Notes under the pieces: generated by a model
Seen by the model: only the letters and a program-made list of their open reading frames with translations
Told to the model about the DNA's origin: nothing
Database searches by the model: none
Translations under genes and position numbers: made by a program
Part shown: piece after piece, positions 377-54,412 of the stretch
How positions within the stretch are numbered: the first letter of the stretch is position 1
How the letters are laid out: each line of letters starts with the position of its first letter
From: a virus
Strand: one strand, 5' to 3'
Virus record (IMG/VR): IMGVR_UViG_3300036770_008729
Coordinates: 95,359 to 159,358 of that record
DNA length: 64,000 nucleotides

Positions 377-579
377 TAGTTATTTGTACAGATGTGGACA
401 ATGTAGGTTCTGATATGAAATTATCACTTACAATAGGGAAATCATATAAGGTCATTAGAGAAAATAATATAGGATTTTATTTAGAAGATGACCGTGGTTC
501 TATTCAATGGTATTCTAAATGGAGGTTCAGTAGGTCAGAGTGGAGAGATAATCAAATAGATAAAATATTATTTACTTAG
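373..579 (+). CDS. Small protein with shared C-terminal motif
   Basis: A 68-residue protein, probably a small beta-barrel, ending in EWRDNQIDKILFT and so carrying the shared tail. It stops with TAG at 577-579, one of several genes here using TAG as a normal terminator. Its end overlaps by a few bases the end of the convergent CCA-adding enzyme gene. Unknown function. Confidence 0.65.
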   Translation: MIVICTDVDNVGSDMKLSLTIGKSYKVIRENNIGFYLEDDRGSIQWYSKWRFSRSEWRDNQIDKILFT

Positions 580-1736
580 AATTTTTCTATCTCAATTCTT
601 TTAATCTCTTCACCGAGTTCTTTTCCTTTAAATCCTTTATCCATTAAGTCCTTAACCGATACGGTTGGTTTCCAATCAACAAATTTAATTATATTAATGT
701 CTTTGATTTTACAGACATCAATCCATTCTAATATAGTAGAATCTTTTATATGACAACCTAATTTGAGTTTATAAATATCAATTAATTGTTCTGGTTTGAA
801 TGATTGTAGTCTTAATAAAAATTCAACTTTGTTTGCTACTTCTCCTTCAATTTTGTATTCATCTATTAATTTTTTTGATAACCCTACAGGATTTTCTAAT
901 TTAAATAAATGTGATATCACTACAACAAAATCTTTACTATTTATTGTAATTGTGTTGATAGAAGCTCCTGGAAAAACTTCATCCCACATATCAAATTTTG
1001 TAAAGAAATTTAAGTAATGATTAAAATCTTTCGCCTGAGACCAAGCCTTCTTAAACTCTTCCCATATTCTTTCCGCTGATATTCTTTTAATCTTACCAGT
1101 CTCTGGATCTATATTAGATAGTTGTTTTCTCTTTTCAATTGCCCTTTCCGTATCTTTATGTAGAGGATGTCCATATCTCGATGCGAATCTAAAGGCTCTT
1201 AAAATTCTAAGTGAATCTTCATCAAATCTTTCGACTGGATCACCAACCATACGAGTTATTCCACTTTCTAAATCTTGCCTTCCACCTACCAAATCAACCA
1301 CTTCTTTTTTATCTAAATCATAAAATAAAGAGTTGTAAGTGAGGTCACGACGCTTGACATCATCTTCAATGGTAACACCTAATTTAACTTCAGGATTTCT
1401 TCCCTTAGAAATGTCTTGTCTAAAAGTAGCGATTTCCATTCCACCTGGTTGATCGTCAGTGTAGACAACTACTACACCGAAAGCTTTACCTTGTAAGTTA
1501 AAGTCATAGTTGTATGATTGTAGTATTTTAATAACCTCATCAGGAAGAGCATCGGTTGCTAAGTCAAAGTCTTTTGGTTTATCACCAGTTAGGAAATCAC
1601 GAACTGATCCACCAACTAAATATAGTTTTTTACCAGCTTTTCTAAAAATGTTATTCAAATCTTTAACTGATTTTGGAATATAATCCCACATATCCGTTTT
1701 TGACTCCAAAAACTGTTCATACTTTTTTAATTTCAT
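576..1736 (-). CDS. cca: CCA tRNA nucleotidyltransferase
   Basis: A class II tRNA nucleotidyltransferase of 386 residues, which adds or repairs the 3' CCA of tRNAs using CTP and ATP. The head domain has GGSVRD at about residues 42-47 and the catalytic DFD at 56-58. RRDLTYNSL (129-137) and EDSLRILRAFRFASR (173-187) follow, as in the family. It fits the three tRNA-type genes in the window, none of which encodes CCA. The protein begins MKLKKYEQFLES, the N-terminal tag seen on many phage proteins here, so it may be packaged in the virion (inference). AT-rich GAATATATAC lies just upstream. Confidence 0.93.
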   Translation of the reverse strand: MKLKKYEQFLESKTDMWDYIPKSVKDLNNIFRKAGKKLYLVGGSVRDFLTGDKPKDFDLATDALPDEVIKILQSYNYDFNLQGKAFGVVVVYTDDQPGGMEIATFRQDISKGRNPEVKLGVTIEDDVKRRDLTYNSLFYDLDKKEVVDLVGGRQDLESGITRMVGDPVERFDEDSLRILRAFRFASRYGHPLHKDTERAIEKRKQLSNIDPETGKIKRISAERIWEEFKKAWSQAKDFNHYLNFFTKFDMWDEVFPGASINTITINSKDFVVVISHLFKLENPVGLSKKLIDEYKIEGEVANKVEFLLRLQSFKPEQLIDIYKLKLGCHIKDSTILEWIDVCKIKDINIIKFVDWKPTVSVKDLMDKGFKGKELGEEIKRIEIEKF

Positions 1737-11285: not shown

Positions 11286-11828
11286 ATGAAATACTTAAAG
11301 AAATATAAATTATTTGAATCCACTCCTGATGAAGAATGGAGTACAGTAGAAGAAAGAGAAAATACTATTAGACATATATCACTTGAATTTGAAGACGTTG
11401 GACTTATATGTAGTATTTCTAAAGTCAGAAAAGATGTTGAATTAGAACCAGACCGTTATAATGGTAAAACAAAAACTGATCTCTTTTTAGAAGTTTATTT
11501 GTCAAGAAATTGGTATTCACCAAATAGAGAAATACCTGGTGTAGTAAATCCTGAAGGTGGTTACCCTGGTAATCTTATTTTCTGGTATGAAATCAAAAAT
11601 ATAATCATTAGAATTGCTAAATGGTATTATGAAGTAGAGAGCATTTATGATCCTATAAGTAAAGATGCTGTTTATAGAGATGAAAAGGAGAAATCACCTT
11701 TGAGATTCTTTGGTAGTGGAATAGAGATGTTGATTGGTTGTAGTAAAGAAGAGGATTTTGAGAAATTAGGTGATTTTATTTCATTTACTAATTTTAGAAT
11801 AATGATTAAAATATCTGAACAAGTATAA
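11286..11828 (+). CDS. N-terminally tagged protein, unknown
   Basis: A 180-residue protein starting MKYLKKYKLFES, the clearest form of the tag, with L-F-E followed by Ser as a possible processing site. The rest is a mixed alpha/beta sequence without known motifs. AGGAG immediately precedes the ATG, and the gene follows its neighbour by three bases. Confidence 0.65.
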   Translation: MKYLKKYKLFESTPDEEWSTVEERENTIRHISLEFEDVGLICSISKVRKDVELEPDRYNGKTKTDLFLEVYLSRNWYSPNREIPGVVNPEGGYPGNLIFWYEIKNIIIRIAKWYYEVESIYDPISKDAVYRDEKEKSPLRFFGSGIEMLIGCSKEEDFEKLGDFISFTNFRIMIKISEQV

Positions 11829-12985: not shown

Positions 12986-13435
12986 ATGAAACACCTAAAA
13001 AAATATAGATTATTTGAATCACAGAAGTATAATATGGGTGATTTTATGGATATCATTTATGATTTGCGTCTTAGGTGTTATGACTTTAACGATGGTGGTT
13101 GCACTTGGAAAATTCTACCGGAAGAAGAAATACAAATCAACTTACTTAGACTTGCCTATAATAGAACTATTGAGTCTAAAGGCGTTGTATTTAAGTTATT
13201 AATTGATATACGAAATATAAAATCAGATGATGATCTTAATTCTCAATCTCTACCTAATTGGTTTATCAATAAATGTCTAGAAATAGAATCAATGATGAGA
13301 ATGTATGGATTTAAAACTCTACCTTCTATCAAAAGACCAACTGACTGGGAACATTTTGACACAATTGACGAACTAAGTGAGGCAAGTGGTCTTTTTAGAG
13401 AAGTTCAACTTCTTTTCAGAAAAATTGGAGAGTAG
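12986..13435 (+). CDS. N-terminally tagged protein, unknown
   Basis: A 149-residue protein starting MKHLKKYRLFESQKY. Almost the same string recurs inside the amidotransferase fusion at 50673-51857. The remainder has several Trp and Cys residues but no known motif. It ends in TAG and is the last of the first tagged run. Confidence 0.65.
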   Translation: MKHLKKYRLFESQKYNMGDFMDIIYDLRLRCYDFNDGGCTWKILPEEEIQINLLRLAYNRTIESKGVVFKLLIDIRNIKSDDDLNSQSLPNWFINKCLEIESMMRMYGFKTLPSIKRPTDWEHFDTIDELSEASGLFREVQLLFRKIGE

Positions 13436-13650: not shown

Positions 13651-14070
13651 ATGAGATACTTAAAGTCATATAAAGTATTTGAGATAAGAGAAAGTCCTTA
13701 TTTAGATGGATCGGATAGTCCTATGAAAGTTAAATATGGAAAAGAAGTTATTGATAAGTGTGATGAGGTGATTGAGTATATCAAACAGATTATGTTAAAC
13801 TTAGAAGATTTGAAATTTTATTGTTATGTGAATTACACACCTTTAACAAAAGTTTATCAGGAAGTTGAGCCTATTTTATTTGTTGATATAAGTCAGAATC
13901 CAGAAATACCATTAGATGAAGAAGCAAAAACAGAACTTGAGTATACAATAGAATCAATTAAAAAATATATTGATTCAAAACATTTTTTCCTAACTGATTA
14001 TCGTTTTAATGATAGAGGTGTTGAAAAGTATTCAGCAAGATTCTATCCAAAACCTGAAAAGCAAAACTGA
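13651..14070 (+). CDS. N-terminally tagged protein, unknown
   Basis: A 139-residue protein starting MRYLKSYKVFEI, a variant of the tag with V-F-E in place of L-F-E. It is acidic, with a helix-rich middle. It is followed one base later by another tagged gene. Not recognised. Confidence 0.62.
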   Translation: MRYLKSYKVFEIRESPYLDGSDSPMKVKYGKEVIDKCDEVIEYIKQIMLNLEDLKFYCYVNYTPLTKVYQEVEPILFVDISQNPEIPLDEEAKTELEYTIESIKKYIDSKHFFLTDYRFNDRGVEKYSARFYPKPEKQN

Positions 14071-14071
14071 T

Positions 14072-14719
14072 ATGAAATACATTAAAACACAAGAAGAATT
14101 CAATGAAGGGTTCAATCTTAAAAAAGCACTAATCGGTGGTGCAATAGGGGCATCTATTGGTTTTTCCGCTTTACATCTTTCAGAAATTGATGGTAAAGCA
14201 AAAAAAGAAGATACTGAAATAGTATCTGGTCAGAAATTCGATCAATTTGATGTTTATGTTAATAGTGAAGAATTTGATCTCAATATATCCGAAGATGGTG
14301 TAATAACTTCAGAATGGACTGAAGAACATGGTTCTGGTAAAAACAGAACTACACATACTTATAGAGGAGCTACCGTTCCAAAAGGCACAACCGATATATG
14401 GGTCGAATCAAAATTCGCTGAAATAAATGGCAATGTATTTGTTAGCACTAAGCCTTTACAAAATGGCAATCATATTAGATTATCCGATTTAGATATAGAA
14501 GAACAAACTGCCACCTATACAATCTATAGTGGTGGTATGTTTGGTGACTTAGATTATATCATAGTTGATAATGGACATGTTGATGGTGAGGAATTCACAA
14601 TTGATGGTAAGATAGGTAATTGGAGTTGTGATAAATTAGGAAGTCATATTTATAGTTTCACCTTTAAAAACTTTGGTGGAGGATCTGGTGGTGGTGCTGG
14701 AAGTGGAGGAAAATTTTAA
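14072..14719 (+). CDS. Tagged membrane-associated protein with Gly-rich tail
   Basis: The ATG at 14072 follows the previous stop by one base and gives 215 residues; a longer in-frame start at 14009 lies within the upstream gene. The protein starts MKYIKTQEEFNEGF. A Gly/Ala-rich hydrophobic stretch (about 19-37, ALIGGAIGASIGFSALHL) could span or associate with a membrane. A Thr/Gly-rich beta region follows, and the end is Gly/Ser-rich. Possibly a virion or ejected protein, inferred from the tag. Confidence 0.6.
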   Translation: MKYIKTQEEFNEGFNLKKALIGGAIGASIGFSALHLSEIDGKAKKEDTEIVSGQKFDQFDVYVNSEEFDLNISEDGVITSEWTEEHGSGKNRTTHTYRGATVPKGTTDIWVESKFAEINGNVFVSTKPLQNGNHIRLSDLDIEEQTATYTIYSGGMFGDLDYIIVDNGHVDGEEFTIDGKIGNWSCDKLGSHIYSFTFKNFGGGSGGGAGSGGKF

Positions 14720-17947: not shown

Positions 17948-19297
17948 ATGACTATGATGACTGAAAAATCTATTTCTGAGTTTCTCAGTAATGAATATAA
18001 GGATTTCGCCATGTATGTGGTCGAAGGACGTGCAATACCATCAAGTATTGACGGGTTCAAACCCACACAAAGAAAAATTATTCATGTTGCCAATCAAATC
18101 TGGAAAACCGGAAATGAAAAAACACTTAAAGTGTTTCAATTAAGTGGTAAGGTCGCCTCTGATTGTTTCTACCATCACGGCGATATGTCCTTATCAAATG
18201 CCATAATAAATATGGCTCAAAAGTTTAAGAACAACGCTCCCCTTTTAGAAGAAGAAGGTCAGTTTGGTTCTCTTAGGTCTCCACAACCTGGAGCTCCTCG
18301 TTATATCGGAACCAAACTAAATGATAACTTCCGTCTAATATACAAAGACTTTGAGCTACTTCAATATAAAGAAGAAGAAGGAGAACAAATTGAACCTAAA
18401 TATTTCTTACCTATTGTTCCTACCGTTTTATTAAACGGATCATCTGGAATTGCAGTTGGATTTGCCTCAAACATCTTAAATAGAGATATAAAAAGTATTA
18501 TTGATGCTTCTGTTAGAGTTCTTATGGGTAAAGAGCCAGGTGAAGTAAAACCACATTTAAATGGATTTTTAGGTGAGTTTATACAAGATACAGAAAATAA
18601 TAAAAGATGGATTATTAGAGGTAAGTGTGAAAGAGTTAATACTTCTACCGTGAGAATAACTGAACTTCCACCATCAACAACTTATGAAAAGTATGAAGAG
18701 GTTTTGGATAAATTGGTGGATGATAAAGTAATTGTTTCTTATGATGATAACTGTAAGGATAATATAGATTATACAATCAAATTCACAAGAGTAGATTTAG
18801 AAAAGTTCGATGATGAGAAGTTGTTAAGAGTATTGAAGTTAGAGGAATCATCAACTGAGATTTACTCAACACTGGATGAGTTTGGTAAATTAAAAATATT
18901 TGATAATACAACAGACATTATTAAATACTTTGTTAATTTCAGATTAACTTATTATCATAAGAGAAAGTCATTCTTATTAGAAAGAATGAATAAAGAATTA
19001 AAACTTCTTTCCAATCGAGGTAGATTTATTAAAGCGATTTTAGATGAGAAGCTAAAAGTTAATAATGTTGTAAAGTCAGAAATCGTAGCACAGATTGAAT
19101 CTTTGAGTTTAGATAAGATAGATGATTCTTATGATTACTTATTGAAAATGCCTATTTACTCTTTAACAAAAGAAGTATTTGAGAAGTTAAAAGAAGATTT
19201 CAAATTGAAAAAGGAAGAGATTACAAAGCTGGAAGCAACTGATCCTAAGGATATGTATTTAGGAGATTTGGCGGAATTGAAAAAGAAGTATAAATAG
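17948..19297 (+). CDS. 52: DNA topoisomerase II medium subunit (GyrA-like)
   Basis: A 449-residue GyrA/ParC-type breakage-reunion subunit equivalent to T4 gp52 (442 residues). The N-terminus has the family pattern AIPSSIDGFKPTQRKIIH (about 30-47). The catalytic Tyr is most likely Tyr119 in QPGAPRYIGTKL, which forms the covalent DNA link. It lacks the long GyrA C-terminal wrapping domain, as in T4. It would work with the ATPase subunit at 8406-10253. ATGs at 17948, 17954 and 17957 are all possible starts. Confidence 0.93.
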   Translation: MTMMTEKSISEFLSNEYKDFAMYVVEGRAIPSSIDGFKPTQRKIIHVANQIWKTGNEKTLKVFQLSGKVASDCFYHHGDMSLSNAIINMAQKFKNNAPLLEEEGQFGSLRSPQPGAPRYIGTKLNDNFRLIYKDFELLQYKEEEGEQIEPKYFLPIVPTVLLNGSSGIAVGFASNILNRDIKSIIDASVRVLMGKEPGEVKPHLNGFLGEFIQDTENNKRWIIRGKCERVNTSTVRITELPPSTTYEKYEEVLDKLVDDKVIVSYDDNCKDNIDYTIKFTRVDLEKFDDEKLLRVLKLEESSTEIYSTLDEFGKLKIFDNTTDIIKYFVNFRLTYYHKRKSFLLERMNKELKLLSNRGRFIKAILDEKLKVNNVVKSEIVAQIESLSLDKIDDSYDYLLKMPIYSLTKEVFEKLKEDFKLKKEEITKLEATDPKDMYLGDLAELKKKYK

Positions 19298-19348
19298 AGA
19301 AACCAGAAACTCTTAAATTTTTTCTATCTTTAATTCTAATTAATTTAA

Positions 19349-19356
19349 TATATTTG
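19349..19356 (+). promoter_or_regulatory. Early-type promoter -7 box
   Basis: TATATTTG is four bases from the ATG at 19361, predicting a leaderless transcript. Confidence 0.6.
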
Positions 19357-19360
19357 TACC

Positions 19361-19783
19361 ATGAAAAATCTATTCTTAGATGATATAAGAATTCCAAAAG
19401 ATGCAATCGGCCTAGTTGATTCTAAATTAAATCAATTTTACTGGTCTCAAGATTGGTCTATTGTTAGAAGTTATGATGAATTCGTTCAATTTATTACCGA
19501 AAAAGGTTTGCCCGACTTTATATCATTTGACCACGACTTAGCAGACGACCACTATAACGACCTTTTTTCTGATAAAAATTGGGCAAAAAAAAATAGTGAT
19601 ATAAAATTAGACTACAATTCATATAAAGAAAAAACTGGATACGAGTGTGCTAAATGGTTAGTAGATTGGTGTGTTGATAATGGATTGAAATTGCCAGATT
19701 ATGTTGTTCATTCTGCTAATCCAGTTGGTAAGAGTAATATAATTTCTTATTTAGAAAATGCTAAAAAGCATCTTTCATTATGA
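19361..19783 (+). CDS. Cyclic-phosphate-processing receiver-like protein (cREC)
   Basis: A 140-residue receiver-like domain. Motifs are NLFLDDIRIP at the N-terminus, FISFDHDLADDHYND in the middle and VVHSANPVGKSNI near the end. These are typical of the cREC family, predicted by comparative genomics to handle 2',3'-cyclic phosphate ends in RNA repair. It lies next to a HAD phosphatase of the same RNA-repair circle, with its own promoter and terminator. The activity is family-based prediction. Confidence 0.8.
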   Translation: MKNLFLDDIRIPKDAIGLVDSKLNQFYWSQDWSIVRSYDEFVQFITEKGLPDFISFDHDLADDHYNDLFSDKNWAKKNSDIKLDYNSYKEKTGYECAKWLVDWCVDNGLKLPDYVVHSANPVGKSNIISYLENAKKHLSL

Positions 19784-48470: not shown

Positions 48471-49298
48471 ATGAAACACTTGAAACGATATAATGAAGAA
48501 TTAAACCCATCTACTTACATAAGTGCTGCTACTAAGTTAAGACAACTCGGTCATGTAAGAAGGCCAAAAGAACTAGAAGATTGGAGTAATTTTGAAAAAG
48601 AAAGGCTTAAAAAACAACAACAATTGTTTAGAAAAGATGAGTTATCACAATTCTCACCATTTAAGTTAAAGTTTTATAAACAAAGGTGGAATTCCGCAAC
48701 AAGAATAACCGAAGAGGATTTCTTAGGAGAAGGCCTTTTTTATGTTGAACCAAGCTTTAGTTCAGATTGGTTTGGTGATATGATGTATGACCATGAGGCA
48801 GATGGAGAAGGTCTTAGTATTCCATTTGAATTTGGAACATCACCAGCAAATGAAGAGACTGAAATAGCTTGGGAAGAAATAAAATCAAAATGCCAAAGTC
48901 TTAAAGAACAAGAATATGACGGTGTTACCTACAATACTAGAATGTGGATTAAATTATTTGATCCAGATAGTTATGTGATTACAAATGAAAATAAATGTTT
49001 CTGGGAAACAGCAGATAATGGTCTTTTTGTTTTGGATAGTAGAGCAGAAGCAATTAGGTTTAAGAAACTAATCATTGACTCTTTAGAAGGTAAAAATCAA
49101 TGGGGTAAGAATAAATGGCACCCAGAAGGGATGTATGGTAATTTTATTAAGTTCTTCCAAAGAGATTTAGAATGGAGAGTAAAAGAAAGAGAAGCTGGGA
49201 GAAATAAATTAGAGCAATACTTCAAACAGGAACATATGCCAATTTTAGCTAATAAAGTTAAAATGGGTTTATCAATAAATGATTTATATAGAAGCTAA
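48471..49298 (+). CDS. N-terminally tagged protein, paralogue 3
   Basis: A 275-residue protein starting MKHLKRYNEELNPSTYISAATKL, with LDSRAEAIRFKKLIIDSLEG near the C-terminus. It shares the paralogous layout. Its stop overlaps the next start by one base. Confidence 0.65.
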   Translation: MKHLKRYNEELNPSTYISAATKLRQLGHVRRPKELEDWSNFEKERLKKQQQLFRKDELSQFSPFKLKFYKQRWNSATRITEEDFLGEGLFYVEPSFSSDWFGDMMYDHEADGEGLSIPFEFGTSPANEETEIAWEEIKSKCQSLKEQEYDGVTYNTRMWIKLFDPDSYVITNENKCFWETADNGLFVLDSRAEAIRFKKLIIDSLEGKNQWGKNKWHPEGMYGNFIKFFQRDLEWRVKEREAGRNKLEQYFKQEHMPILANKVKMGLSINDLYRS

Positions 49299-50671
49299 TG
49301 AAATACTTAAAGAAATATAATGAGGCTTCTGTTTATATACAAAATTCAGATATAAAGAGTTTAGTATATGATAAACTAAGAGAGATAAAGGAAGATATAG
49401 ATAATAATTTCCATATCAATATCATTAATTACATTGAAAGTAATGATGCAAATAATTTGAATAAGAATATTGGAAGAGAATTTGTTAAATGTAAGGTAAT
49501 GAAAGAATCTAATTTTGATTATAGTCAAATTAGTGAAACCATTGAAGGACTTAAAAAGATGATGGAACTTGAAGGGTGGAATCTTTGGGATTATAGTTGT
49601 TACTTAGGTCATAGACCACCAACTGCCAAAATAGAAAGAGAGCTAAATAGAGCTTACAATAGATTTGGTGATGGAAGATGGACTGGGTCTTGTTATTCTT
49701 TTAATATTACCTTTATAAAAGGTGATAATTTGGACTCTCCATATGCTTATATGATGGGTATGAAACAACATCAATTAAAAACAAATGAAGAGTTATTTGC
49801 TTCTACTTATAAATCAGCTGCTGATAAATTGATGGTAAAACATAAAAAAAGAGCTGCTGAGTTGATGAAAATGCATGACTTCAGAAAAAATGAAGAAGAA
49901 AAAGAAAAGCTTCGTCAAGAAGAAATGAGAAAGAATAAAGTAGTTGAAAATGCTGCTCAATTAGGAGTTTATAAGTGTAAGTTAAGAATGTCAAAAGAGG
50001 AATTCATAGGTGATTTTTATCTCAATTTATCATTTGCTGAATATTCATTTGATGAAGATTATCCTTACTTCTTAGATGGTGAAAGTGGTATGTATTTATG
50101 TTTTGCTATTGGTGTAATACCAGCTAATGAAGAATCTAAAGAATGGCTTGATAAGTATGCAAAAGGATTTATTGGTGGTGATAAAGTTACTTATTGGATG
50201 GGAGATCTAAGATTAAAAGCATCTAATGTACAAAATGTTTATCATATGGGTGACTTTCCCGAAGCCCCAACTCCCGGATATGTTAATGATGAGATTTATG
50301 ATAATGGTATAGGTGATGAAACAGTAATTATTTACTATAACTTAACTGATAAAAAGAGATATAGATTTGATATAGAAAATAATAAATGGGTAAGTCATTA
50401 CTTAGAGTTTGAACCTAATGGTTCTATGTATTTTGAAATCCACGAAGGTTATTTTTGTTTGGTTGATAGAAAATCAGCGGTTCAATTCAAATCAAAGTTT
50501 TATGACATATTTGCAGGTAAGATTATTTTCAAACCAGACCAAAATCTTGACCACGTAAAAGATATGATGTTAGAATGTATTTGTAATGAATATGGGCATT
50601 CTATACAAGAGTTTATAGATGTTATGGAATCTATAAAGAGAGTAAAAATCAACACACTTTATAAAGATTAA
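49298..50671 (+). CDS. Tagged fusion protein, paralogue 4
   Basis: A 457-residue protein with two parts. Residues 1-154 start MKYLKKYNEAS and are unrelated to the paralogues. From residue 155 (ATG at 49760) MKQHQLKTNEELFASTYKSA resembles the start of paralogues 1-3, and VDRKSAVQFKSKFYDI matches their C-terminal element. It therefore looks like two tagged genes fused, leaving a degraded tag inside. Confidence 0.65.
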   Translation: MKYLKKYNEASVYIQNSDIKSLVYDKLREIKEDIDNNFHINIINYIESNDANNLNKNIGREFVKCKVMKESNFDYSQISETIEGLKKMMELEGWNLWDYSCYLGHRPPTAKIERELNRAYNRFGDGRWTGSCYSFNITFIKGDNLDSPYAYMMGMKQHQLKTNEELFASTYKSAADKLMVKHKKRAAELMKMHDFRKNEEEKEKLRQEEMRKNKVVENAAQLGVYKCKLRMSKEEFIGDFYLNLSFAEYSFDEDYPYFLDGESGMYLCFAIGVIPANEESKEWLDKYAKGFIGGDKVTYWMGDLRLKASNVQNVYHMGDFPEAPTPGYVNDEIYDNGIGDETVIIYYNLTDKKRYRFDIENNKWVSHYLEFEPNGSMYFEIHEGYFCLVDRKSAVQFKSKFYDIFAGKIIFKPDQNLDHVKDMMLECICNEYGHSIQEFIDVMESIKRVKINTLYKD

Positions 50672-50672
50672 A

Positions 50673-51857
50673 ATGAAGTATATCAAAGAATATATTGACT
50701 CAATCTCTGATGGTGTTATTTTGATTATTGATAATACAAAACCTCCTGAGAAAAATTATTTATCAAATGTGATAAAATATTTAGAATCAAGAAAAATTGA
50801 TTATGTTATTTGTGCTGATATTGATACCTTAAAGAGAAATATTGAAAATAATAAAATAATTGGTTCTATTTCGACTGGATCTGATTATAGAGTTTTCAAA
50901 AGTGAGCACTTGGATTTATCTTATTACGCAATAGAAAACTTAAAATGTCCGATGTTGGGTATTTGTTTCGGGTTTCAATCAATGGCCAAGTTTTATGGTT
51001 CTGAAATTTCACAAGATGAACTACTGGATGATTTAGTAATCTTAGATAATTATGATTCTACACATCCGTTATTTAGTGGAATAGACTTGAATACACAACC
51101 TGTTAAATTTTGTTTTCATGACTTTCCAATTGAAGTTCCACCTGGATTTCGACCAATTTGTGAAATAAACAATAAAATAGCTGGTATCTGTTCTAATAAT
51201 AGATTTGGATTACTTTTTCACCCAGAAGATATGATTGAAACTTATAAAATATTTGATAATTTTATTCAGATTTGTAAATCAAGTAAAGTTCAGGAATCTA
51301 AAATAATAAAATCATTTAGATTATTTGAATCACAAAACGCTGGTTCTGGAAATGCTTCTTTTAACTGGTTAAAGAAACAAAATAATGAAGATTATTTAAA
51401 ATTAAGTGAGTTACTTTTAGACCTTTTTGACGATTGGAGCATTAGACCTAAAGAAGAAGGTTTCTATTTCGAAGATGATCCTGAAGAATGGCCAACATAT
51501 AAATTTTGGACATTTCATACTATTAAAAGTAAATCTGTTGTCGATGATACTGCTGACTTTTCGAAAATCTCAAAAGATGATGAGATTCAAAACATAATTA
51601 TTTTTAACATACCAGTAGTCTCTATGTCAGACAGAAATGAAGATTCATTTTTAGATTTTAAGCAATCAATTGAAGAACTTAAGCCGAGAATCAGAGGATA
51701 TATCGGTAAAGAACTTATTATGGGTCATGAAGAAATAAGACCAGAAGATCCTGAAGATAATATGTATTATGATGTTATTTTGAGATTGGTACAATTAGAT
51801 AAGACTAATGAGAGTTTAACAAAAGATAATAGATCTATCTTTTCTAAAAGAAGATAA
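50673..51857 (+). CDS. Tagged glutamine amidotransferase fusion
   Basis: A 394-residue protein starting MKYIKEYIDSISDG. Residues 15-200 form a class I glutamine amidotransferase: GICFGFQ (nucleophile Cys98) and LFHPED (His183, Glu185), as in GMP synthetase-type enzymes. At 209-220 SKIIKSFRLFES nearly matches the tag of the gene at 12986 (MKHLKKYRLFES). A second, unrelated domain follows. This looks like a fusion of an amidotransferase gene to a tagged gene. What amide-dependent step it serves is unknown. Confidence 0.72.
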   Translation: MKYIKEYIDSISDGVILIIDNTKPPEKNYLSNVIKYLESRKIDYVICADIDTLKRNIENNKIIGSISTGSDYRVFKSEHLDLSYYAIENLKCPMLGICFGFQSMAKFYGSEISQDELLDDLVILDNYDSTHPLFSGIDLNTQPVKFCFHDFPIEVPPGFRPICEINNKIAGICSNNRFGLLFHPEDMIETYKIFDNFIQICKSSKVQESKIIKSFRLFESQNAGSGNASFNWLKKQNNEDYLKLSELLLDLFDDWSIRPKEEGFYFEDDPEEWPTYKFWTFHTIKSKSVVDDTADFSKISKDDEIQNIIIFNIPVVSMSDRNEDSFLDFKQSIEELKPRIRGYIGKELIMGHEEIRPEDPEDNMYYDVILRLVQLDKTNESLTKDNRSIFSKRR

Positions 51858-51973: not shown

Positions 51974-52723
51974 ATGATTTATTTTGTTACGCACTTAAAA
52001 GATAGTATTGCAAATAACTATTTAGGTATTAAATTTGAACCTGGAGTTATAGAACCATTCCTGAGAGAATTAAAAGAAGTTATTGGTGAAGATGATTATA
52101 AAATCTATACTGATAATCAACAGAGAAGAGATTTAGGTCAATTCAATATGAATATTATTGAAGTTGAAGAATATAATAAACTATCCGAAGAAATGGGTAT
52201 TGATCAATTTGTTAATTCTTTGGATTTAATCTTAAAATATGAGATTGATGATTTGAAGATGATGGGTGTAGGAACTGCAACTAAAAATGAAAATAGAAGT
52301 TATTTTATTGTTTGTAAATCTGAAAAGATTGATGCTATCAGAGATAGGTATGAATTAAAAGATAAAGACTTACACATAACAATTGGTTTTAAGTGGAAAG
52401 ATGTTCATGGTGTTTCAAAAAATCAAGTCTTAGAAAAAGAGGATAAATTTATTCAACTTTTAAAGAATGAATTCTATAAAAACGACAATTGGAATTTCAT
52501 AAAAAAGATAGGAAACTTCAAATTAAATCCAAATGACGAAATTATACCAGTAAAAATAGAAGATACTAAAGCACTTTATAAAAGTGGTAAGTATTATATT
52601 TCGATTGGAATATTGGATGATGAGAGATTTTGGATTATGGCTGAATATCCTATTGAAGAAGAACTTCCAAGATTGTCACAGACTGAAATTGCTAAAATAT
52701 TAAATAAAAATAAGAAAGTATAA
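51974..52723 (+). CDS. 2H-type RNA-repair-like protein ('Swiss Army Knife' family)
   Basis: A 249-residue protein. DLHITIGFKWKDVHG (about 134-148) is the His-x-Thr motif of the 2H phosphoesterase-like domain in 'Swiss Army Knife' RNA-repair proteins. Only one clear H-x-T is visible, so hydrolysis is not certain. With the cREC and two HAD genes it completes a set predicted to act on broken RNA ends, such as cleaved tRNA. It starts with ATG after an AT-rich promoter region. Confidence 0.65.
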   Translation: MIYFVTHLKDSIANNYLGIKFEPGVIEPFLRELKEVIGEDDYKIYTDNQQRRDLGQFNMNIIEVEEYNKLSEEMGIDQFVNSLDLILKYEIDDLKMMGVGTATKNENRSYFIVCKSEKIDAIRDRYELKDKDLHITIGFKWKDVHGVSKNQVLEKEDKFIQLLKNEFYKNDNWNFIKKIGNFKLNPNDEIIPVKIEDTKALYKSGKYYISIGILDDERFWIMAEYPIEEELPRLSQTEIAKILNKNKKV

Positions 52724-53800: not shown

Positions 53801-54412
53801 ATGTCAAAAGGAAGAAAAGGTCCTCGTTATTTAACACATGATGAAGACAAAGAATTGGTAGTTAAAGCACTTAATGGTGATAATCTATCTTATAGTATAT
53901 TAGCTGAGAAATATAAACCTATTCTTTACACTGCTGTTAGAAGAAGAATGTGGTCTATTTCTGAGGAAGAGGCTGAAGATATCACTATGACATCATTGGG
54001 TAGAGCATTTGTTTATCTTAAAACATATAATCCTGCAAAAAGTAAACTATTCTCTTGGATGATATATGTTTGTCATAATTACATGAATTCAATTCCAAGA
54101 AGAAAGAAATCTATTGAAAATATTAGATATAGTGAAACCGAAAGACCAATTGAAACATTTGCAAACTCTACTGAGTCTGACGATATTAATGGTCATATAG
54201 ATGAATCAAACAAACTAAAATTAGTTAGAAAACTAGTTGAAAAATTAGATCCTGAATGTAGAGATGTATTTATGCTTAAGTATTTCAGAGAAATGTCTAA
54301 TGAAGAGATTGCTAAAGAAATGGGGATAAAAGAATCTGATGTTTATTATCGAGCCAAAAAAGGTAAAGATCAATTAAAGAAATGGTTAAAAAATTATGAT
54401 TTATTTGAATGA
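53801..54412 (+). CDS. Sigma factor, late-transcription type (gp55-like)
   Basis: A 203-residue ECF-like sigma factor. Region 2 includes ILAEKYKPILYTAVRRRMW and a region 2.4-like helix. Region 4 includes LDPECRDVFMLKYFREMSNE, EEIAKEMGIKESDVYYRAKK. In T4 the equivalent gp55 directs host polymerase to TATAAATA late promoters. This factor is a good candidate to read the TTAATATATA motif upstream of tagged genes (inference). Confidence 0.85.
   Translation: MSKGRKGPRYLTHDEDKELVVKALNGDNLSYSILAEKYKPILYTAVRRRMWSISEEEAEDITMTSLGRAFVYLKTYNPAKSKLFSWMIYVCHNYMNSIPRRKKSIENIRYSETERPIETFANSTESDDINGHIDESNKLKLVRKLVEKLDPECRDVFMLKYFREMSNEEIAKEMGIKESDVYYRAKKGKDQLKKWLKNYDLFE

Follow-up and report, generated by a model that had tools for sequence, protein, structure and literature searches.

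Many open reading frames (ORFs) in the window, by which we mean the whole stretch of 64,000 nucleotides that was analysed, begin with MK-[YHW]-[LI]-K-x-[FY]. One ORF carries a peptide of this kind in its interior, and the question raised by this locus is how the tag came to be there and whether it still works. The original prediction was that the internal tag lies between an amidotransferase domain and an unrelated domain, that an untagged or tagged gene had been joined to a tagged gene, and that the protein would be cut into two if the tag still served as a processing site. As a whole, the locus would be best explained by a fusion keeping a tag that works like the T4 capsid targeting sequence (CTS), and we put the probability of this reading at roughly 0.6. 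The features concerned are as follows.

50673..51857, plus strand: fusion gene, a 394-residue ORF with a degenerate N-terminal tag, a class-I glutamine amidotransferase, a linker with an internal tag, and a C-terminal domain.
50673..50708, plus strand: tag-like N-terminus MKYIKEYIDSIS, in which MKxIKxY is kept and the second aromatic is absent (10.2 bits on the tag profile).
50697..51281, plus strand: GMP-synthase-like amidotransferase domain, residues 9-203, with a Pfam match and Cys98, His183, and Glu185.
51297..51332, plus strand: internal tag SKIIKSFRLFES, residues 209-220, read from the ORF and scored on the profile.
51321..51332, plus strand: LFE↓S, candidate prohead-protease site with a putative cut between 51329 and 51330 (L/I-X-E motif as given in excerpts of PMC9026906).
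51333..51854, plus strand: C-terminal domain, residues 221-394, which is a gene of its own behind an N-terminal tag in two related phages.
49298..50671, plus strand: upstream neighbour, 1 nt ahead of the fusion gene, with the N-terminal tag MKYLKKYNEAS and an unrelated body.
12986..13435, plus strand: reference gene with the N-terminal tag MKHLKKYRLFES at the start of its ORF.

The amidotransferase domain expected before the internal tag is present. Residues 28-196 of the fusion protein matched Pfam GATase (PF00117; E 3.8e-9, 36.9 bits against a cut-off of 22.8), and the catalytic triad of Cys98, His183, and Glu185 is in place, with the motifs GICFGFQS and LFHPED. When an amidotransferase profile of five relatives was compared with PDB, the best matches were GMP synthase amidotransferase subunits (29 sequences with E values of at most 1e-3, the top one 1.2e-15), and the predicted fold was also closest to GMP synthase subunits (Foldseek E 3.8e-10). 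Judged by sequence, the N-terminal ~200 residues are a class-I glutamine amidotransferase. The phage domain is similar to the GATase subunit of GMP synthase in its best sequence and fold matches and in its retained catalytic residues, but it is joined to unrelated phage domains and no synthetase domain was seen. The second half of the fusion protein had no family match in Pfam or PHROG and no phage record. In the AlphaFold model of the full chain, most of residues 206-308 scored below 50, and the linker with the tag (206-245) also scored below 50 and is thus predicted to be disordered; a local helix at the tag (215-223) was predicted with low confidence. The model of a stand-alone second-half homolog had a mean of 44.6, and the second-half models were too poor for a fold search.

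Separate homologs were found for both halves. The amidotransferase occurs in four related viral contigs (42-46% identity), each time as the C-terminal part of a 460-474-residue protein that has a tagged N-domain, ends soon after the amidotransferase, and lacks the second half. The second half is encoded by its own gene in two of the four relatives, G003 (E 5.5e-18, 40% identity) and G001 (E 4.4e-10, 37% identity); no match was found in G002 and G004 in a search of the four relatives' records and our own. Both stand-alone genes, in G003 and G001, begin exactly at the tag (MKHLKSYKVFEN... and MRHINNFRLFEN...), and their longer starts are MKHLKSYKVFENSGSGNAQFDWLRKQNNE (GTG start) and MRHINNFRLFENLSANEDYITLS. 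When the tag and the following start were aligned between the window and the G003 gene, 19 of 33 positions were identical. In G003, the neighbours of this gene are four other small tagged genes, and its tag (L040) ends in VFE, which is not L/I-x-E. These homologs, the check named in the original prediction, bear out the fusion, the amidotransferase being without the second half in 4/4 relatives and the second half being separate and tagged in two. The parentage needs one refinement: the relatives' amidotransferase is not free-standing, as it follows another tagged domain and ends in a tag-like tail of its own. Sequence comparison establishes the gene as an in-frame fusion of a GMP-synthase-like amidotransferase module and a small tagged gene with the tag kept in the linker, and the fusion almost certainly took place at the tag. 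Inside the window's clusters, tagged genes are spaced by -4 to +25 nt, close enough for a small indel to fuse two of them. A scan of viral contigs gave no second-half homolog beyond the two and no second fusion. A scan of genome contigs gave 71 loci, nearly all of them actinobacterial or other cellular amidotransferases with 26-35% identity.

The tag is found throughout the genome. A DNA pattern for tag starts had 51 matches in the 281-kb record to which the window belongs and 3 for the reversed pattern. The corresponding counts were 14 and 2 in G001, 17 and 7 in G002, 41 and 4 in G003, 21 and 6 in G004, 91 and 9 in LR745206 (a 634-kb phage record), and 8 and 1 in T4. This LR record and the others mentioned below are presumably published huge-phage genomes. 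The bodies behind the N-terminal tags differ, so that one short peptide is common to unrelated proteins of one phage. Among 45 N-terminal tags of the record, both aromatics are present in 31 (position 7 being partly fixed by the search pattern), [LI]xE occurs within residues 6-18 in 25, and the looser [LIVMFY]xE in 43. At the DNA level, codons at the same residue were identical in 2966 of 4712 comparisons among tags (63%, against 61% expected) and in 155 of 209 comparisons between the internal tag and N-terminal tags (74%, against 70% expected). A base run around the motif is common to the internal tag and the 12986 gene, and it is accounted for by codon usage. Spread of the tag as a DNA cassette was considered and rejected, since codon usage suffices to explain how alike the tags are in their DNA; the tag is thus conserved at the peptide level, with no sign of a mobile cassette.

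The internal tag-like stretch is real and far beyond chance. It was found where it had been claimed, with SKIIKSFRLFES exactly at residues 209-220 (51297-51332), and its likeness to the start of the 12986 gene, MKHLKKYRLFES, amounts to seven of the 12 residues. We built a profile from residues 2-12 of the 45 N-terminal tags, after dropping four of 49 rows (three short or odd ORFs and the fusion protein itself). On this profile the internal tag scored 18.9-19.2 bits, while genuine N-terminal tags scored at least 11.0, with a median of 21.4, and none of 300 shuffled windows reached 19.2 bits. Among 50,187 internal 12-mers from 223 ORFs, the other top scorers were displaced N-terminal tags behind upstream alternative starts, and the next truly internal 12-mer scored 11.4 bits. 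With a profile from only 13 tags of the window, the internal tag ranked second of 18,708 internal 12-mers (ranks 1 and 3 were N-terminal tags behind an alternative Met start), and four of 200 shuffled windows reached its score. In 300 ORFs from relatives and other huge phages (70,554 12-mers), a single internal 12-mer scored higher (24.1 bits); its first codon is a GTG, probably the true start of the ORF.

Among the known peptides close to the tag are those of T4. The fetched T4 sequences start with MKTYQEFIAE (IPII and IPIII) and MKTFKEFTST (IPI). According to excerpts of PMC9026906, the first ten residues of IPIII are enough for packaging, residues 4 and 7 of the CTS weigh most in targeting and residues 8 and 10 in processing, gp21 cleaves after L/I-x-E, and Alt is processed at both ends. 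The CTS of IPI, IPII, and IPIII, which is cut by gp21, and the tag of this phage are alike in being a short start peptide on otherwise different proteins, with MK, aromatic-x-x-Phe, and, in some of the copies, a candidate L/I-x-E. The phage tag differs in being three residues longer at the front (MK[YHW][LI]Kx[FY]xxF) and in its 45 counted N-terminal copies, which share the N-terminal position with the T4 CTS. In contrast, the copy in the fusion protein is internal (residues 209-220), where packaging and cutting are presumed by analogy, and thus it is not classed as a CTS, only as working like one. T4 Alt, with its reported processing at both ends, sets a precedent for prohead-protease sites elsewhere than at the N-terminus, and the relatives of the amidotransferase are tag-like at both termini, but the C-terminus of Alt is unlike their tails. 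In phage P1, the CTS of DarB is likewise an N-terminal peptide directing proteins into the capsid, but the excerpts of PMC9024508 give no consensus for the Dar N-termini, whereas this phage has a clear common motif. A search of a set of PubMed Central papers, with work on T4, SPN3US, and P1, turned up no tag of such kind in huge phages. On this comparison the tag is probably of the capsid-targeting kind, and a T4-like head tag, used across the genomes of huge phages and present once within a fusion protein, is plausible. The T4-type portal and Gp23 of the relative G003, described below, speak for this reading, and the lack of matches for portal, Gp23, and protease in the phage's own record, which may be incomplete, speaks against it.

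If so, the aromatic pair of the internal tag (F215 and F218, with x-x spacing) would bind the prohead core and the protein would be built into the head. The prohead protease would then cleave after Glu219 (LFE↓S), and since the linker and tag are predicted to be disordered, the protease could reach them. Cleavage there would give back roughly the two ancestral proteins. One would be an amidotransferase with a tag at its end, like those of the relatives, and the other a C-terminal domain that begins with SQNAGSGN, much like the stand-alone gene product once it had lost its tag. The fusion protein contains five [LI]xE motifs, one of which is the LFE↓S of the internal tag, so the motif by itself predicts little. 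Processing of the chain into two is plausible, as LFE↓S fits the published T4 motif, but we give the internal copy somewhat less than an even chance of still being cut by the protease. By analogy with T4, a tag surviving in the middle of a protein could direct the fusion protein to the virus head or serve as a cleavage site. A genome-wide tag of this kind would provide a list of candidate proteins, mostly of unknown function, for delivery into the host by a huge phage.

The fusion could also be real with its internal tag a mere leftover, in which case the two domains would stay joined and targeting, if any, would go through the N-terminal MKYIKEY. The fusion gene does retain this tag-like N-terminus, and with a single fusion known, the internal tag could be young and not yet eroded. 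However, the N-terminal copy is the degenerate one, with 10.2 bits and the second aromatic gone, against 19.2 bits for the internal copy, which retains all typical residues save Met and position 3. We regard a leftover as rather unlikely.

Another possible source of the junction motif, in whole or in part, is the tail at the C-terminus of the amidotransferase itself, with a crossover within two similar tags. All four relatives' amidotransferase proteins end in a tag-like tail of the LxT[FY]E[NS]F type at the same position (LETFESF, LQTYESF, LATYENF, and LQTFENF), set off by a variable linker from the amidotransferase domain. These four relatives have an N-domain ahead of the amidotransferase, and in this phage that domain is encoded by a separate tagged gene at record position 18695-19468, at a distance of 127 kb from the fusion gene. 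It shares 64% identity with the N-domain of L002 and 49% with those of the other three relatives. This split-off N-domain stops where the amidotransferase would begin and then continues into the tail SLKNVQSFSNFNPSTISK, ending in VQSFSNF. Judged by eye, the opposite strand of the DNA past it encodes the YPTEIGSQ.FSP protein that also follows the gene in the relatives. Thus, the amidotransferase is absent from its place in the relatives and lies ahead of a tagged second half, which means that modules have been reshuffled with a junction on a tag. The relatives' tails, the similar end of the split-off N-domain, and a junction without the Met of an N-terminal tag all agree with an origin in the tail, and with such a tail on the relatives' amidotransferase, the junction motif may be of mixed descent. 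On the other hand, the junction fits the N-terminal tag profile across all 12 positions (18.9 bits), while the tails fail on the full profile (-17 to -31 bits in fixed registers, -0.7 to 4.6 in their best registers), and the residues past the junction match the stand-alone gene. Only the six-residue core of the tails scored, at 6.6 to 10.4 bits, at least 8 bits being reached by 0.26% of background 6-mers. A regular expression for this core matched in the last 30 residues of eight of 258 ORFs, five of which belong to the amidotransferase/N-domain family. The tails may be C-terminal tags, being tag-like but less well supported by sequence than the internal tag, and an origin of the junction in such a tail is unlikely. 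Taken with the fusion and the split-off domain, these tails suggest a modular reshuffling of tags and cargo domains, and a tag that may act at positions other than the N-terminus. Elsewhere in the window, a Sigma-70-like factor (53801-54412, plus strand) has last residues, LKKWLKNYDLFE, that resemble a C-terminal tag.

Alternatively, the tags might not be directed to the capsid and could address proteins to another place or partner in the infected cell. The tagged bodies include metabolic enzymes, such as a pterin dehydratase and a poly(A) polymerase-like protein, and head genes were not found in the record itself: searches of the 281-kb record (G000) for Peptidase_S77, Gp23, portal, and the G003 protease-scaffold protein gave no match, some of these searches being silent in control genomes too. 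The relatives are of T4 type, as G003 encodes a T4-type portal (PF07230, E 5e-59) and a Gp23 capsid protein (E 7.2e-29), so the G000 record is probably a fragment of a larger genome, or its head genes are too diverged. A protein of G003 is also a Peptidase_S77 candidate, although its match of 20.1 to 22.5 bits falls short of the Pfam cut-off of 27; tblastn placed records annotated as prohead core scaffold and protease among its relatives. In the G003 protease-scaffold protein (L044:6289-8388, minus strand), Y-x-x-Y-[ILM]-x-E is matched ten times, and nine of these matches follow a 14-residue spacing. Similar repeat arrays are present in LR745206, LR756501, and LR756504, and LR756500 has two matches; none was found in Lak-B2 ORFs at the corresponding place. 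Against a destination other than the head, the [FY]xxF-then-acidic layout fits the T4 internal proteins, and the protease-linked repeat unit of the relatives, YSEY[IL]AE, resembles both the layout of the tag and the T4 tag core TYQEFIAE. We therefore doubt that the tags lead elsewhere. A bolder form of the capsid-targeting reading is that the tag is a position-independent docking motif copying one unit of the prohead protease repeat array, which huge phages place at the start, end, or middle of cargo. The product of the fusion gene would then be a capsid polyprotein that enters the head as a single chain and is split there by the prohead protease, giving equal amounts of two injected proteins. 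We consider this a long shot. LR756504 has the repeats, but the 42 kb of it that were examined hold few tag-like starts (one clear case among six regular-expression matches in 43 ORFs), which counts against a tight link between repeats and tag.

An assembly or sequencing error is very improbable, even though the fusion is known from one metagenomic record only, because the reading frame runs uninterrupted across the linker, a single-base error would not both replace the start codon and join the frames, and all other tags in the record have diverged from the internal one. That the motif is a chance amphipathic linker, a reading to which the low confidence of the predicted helix lends a little room, is scarcely credible, since no shuffled window reached its score and stand-alone homologs start with the motif.

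Directly past the fusion gene, 51974-52723 (plus strand) encodes an untagged 2H phosphoesterase (PF22547, E 6.2e-15). Several other tagged genes were noted. At 576-1736 (minus strand) the window encodes a tagged poly(A) polymerase head-domain protein (PF01743, E 7.2e-32) starting with MKLKKYEQFLES. In G003, L040:2439-2711 is a tagged pterin-4a-carbinolamine dehydratase (Pfam E 5.8e-26), and a gene in G001 (L041:414-686) is alike to it by eye; from their sequences, both look like enzymes bearing head-type tags. The true start of the ORF at 14009-14719 (plus strand) is probably Met22 (MKYIKTQEEFNEG), which would make it another tagged protein. Finally, the tagged protein of 11286-11828 is 46% identical to that of L040:1966-2442 in G003, where it adjoins the second-half gene, and by this similarity it is part of a common set of tagged small genes in this phage and G003.
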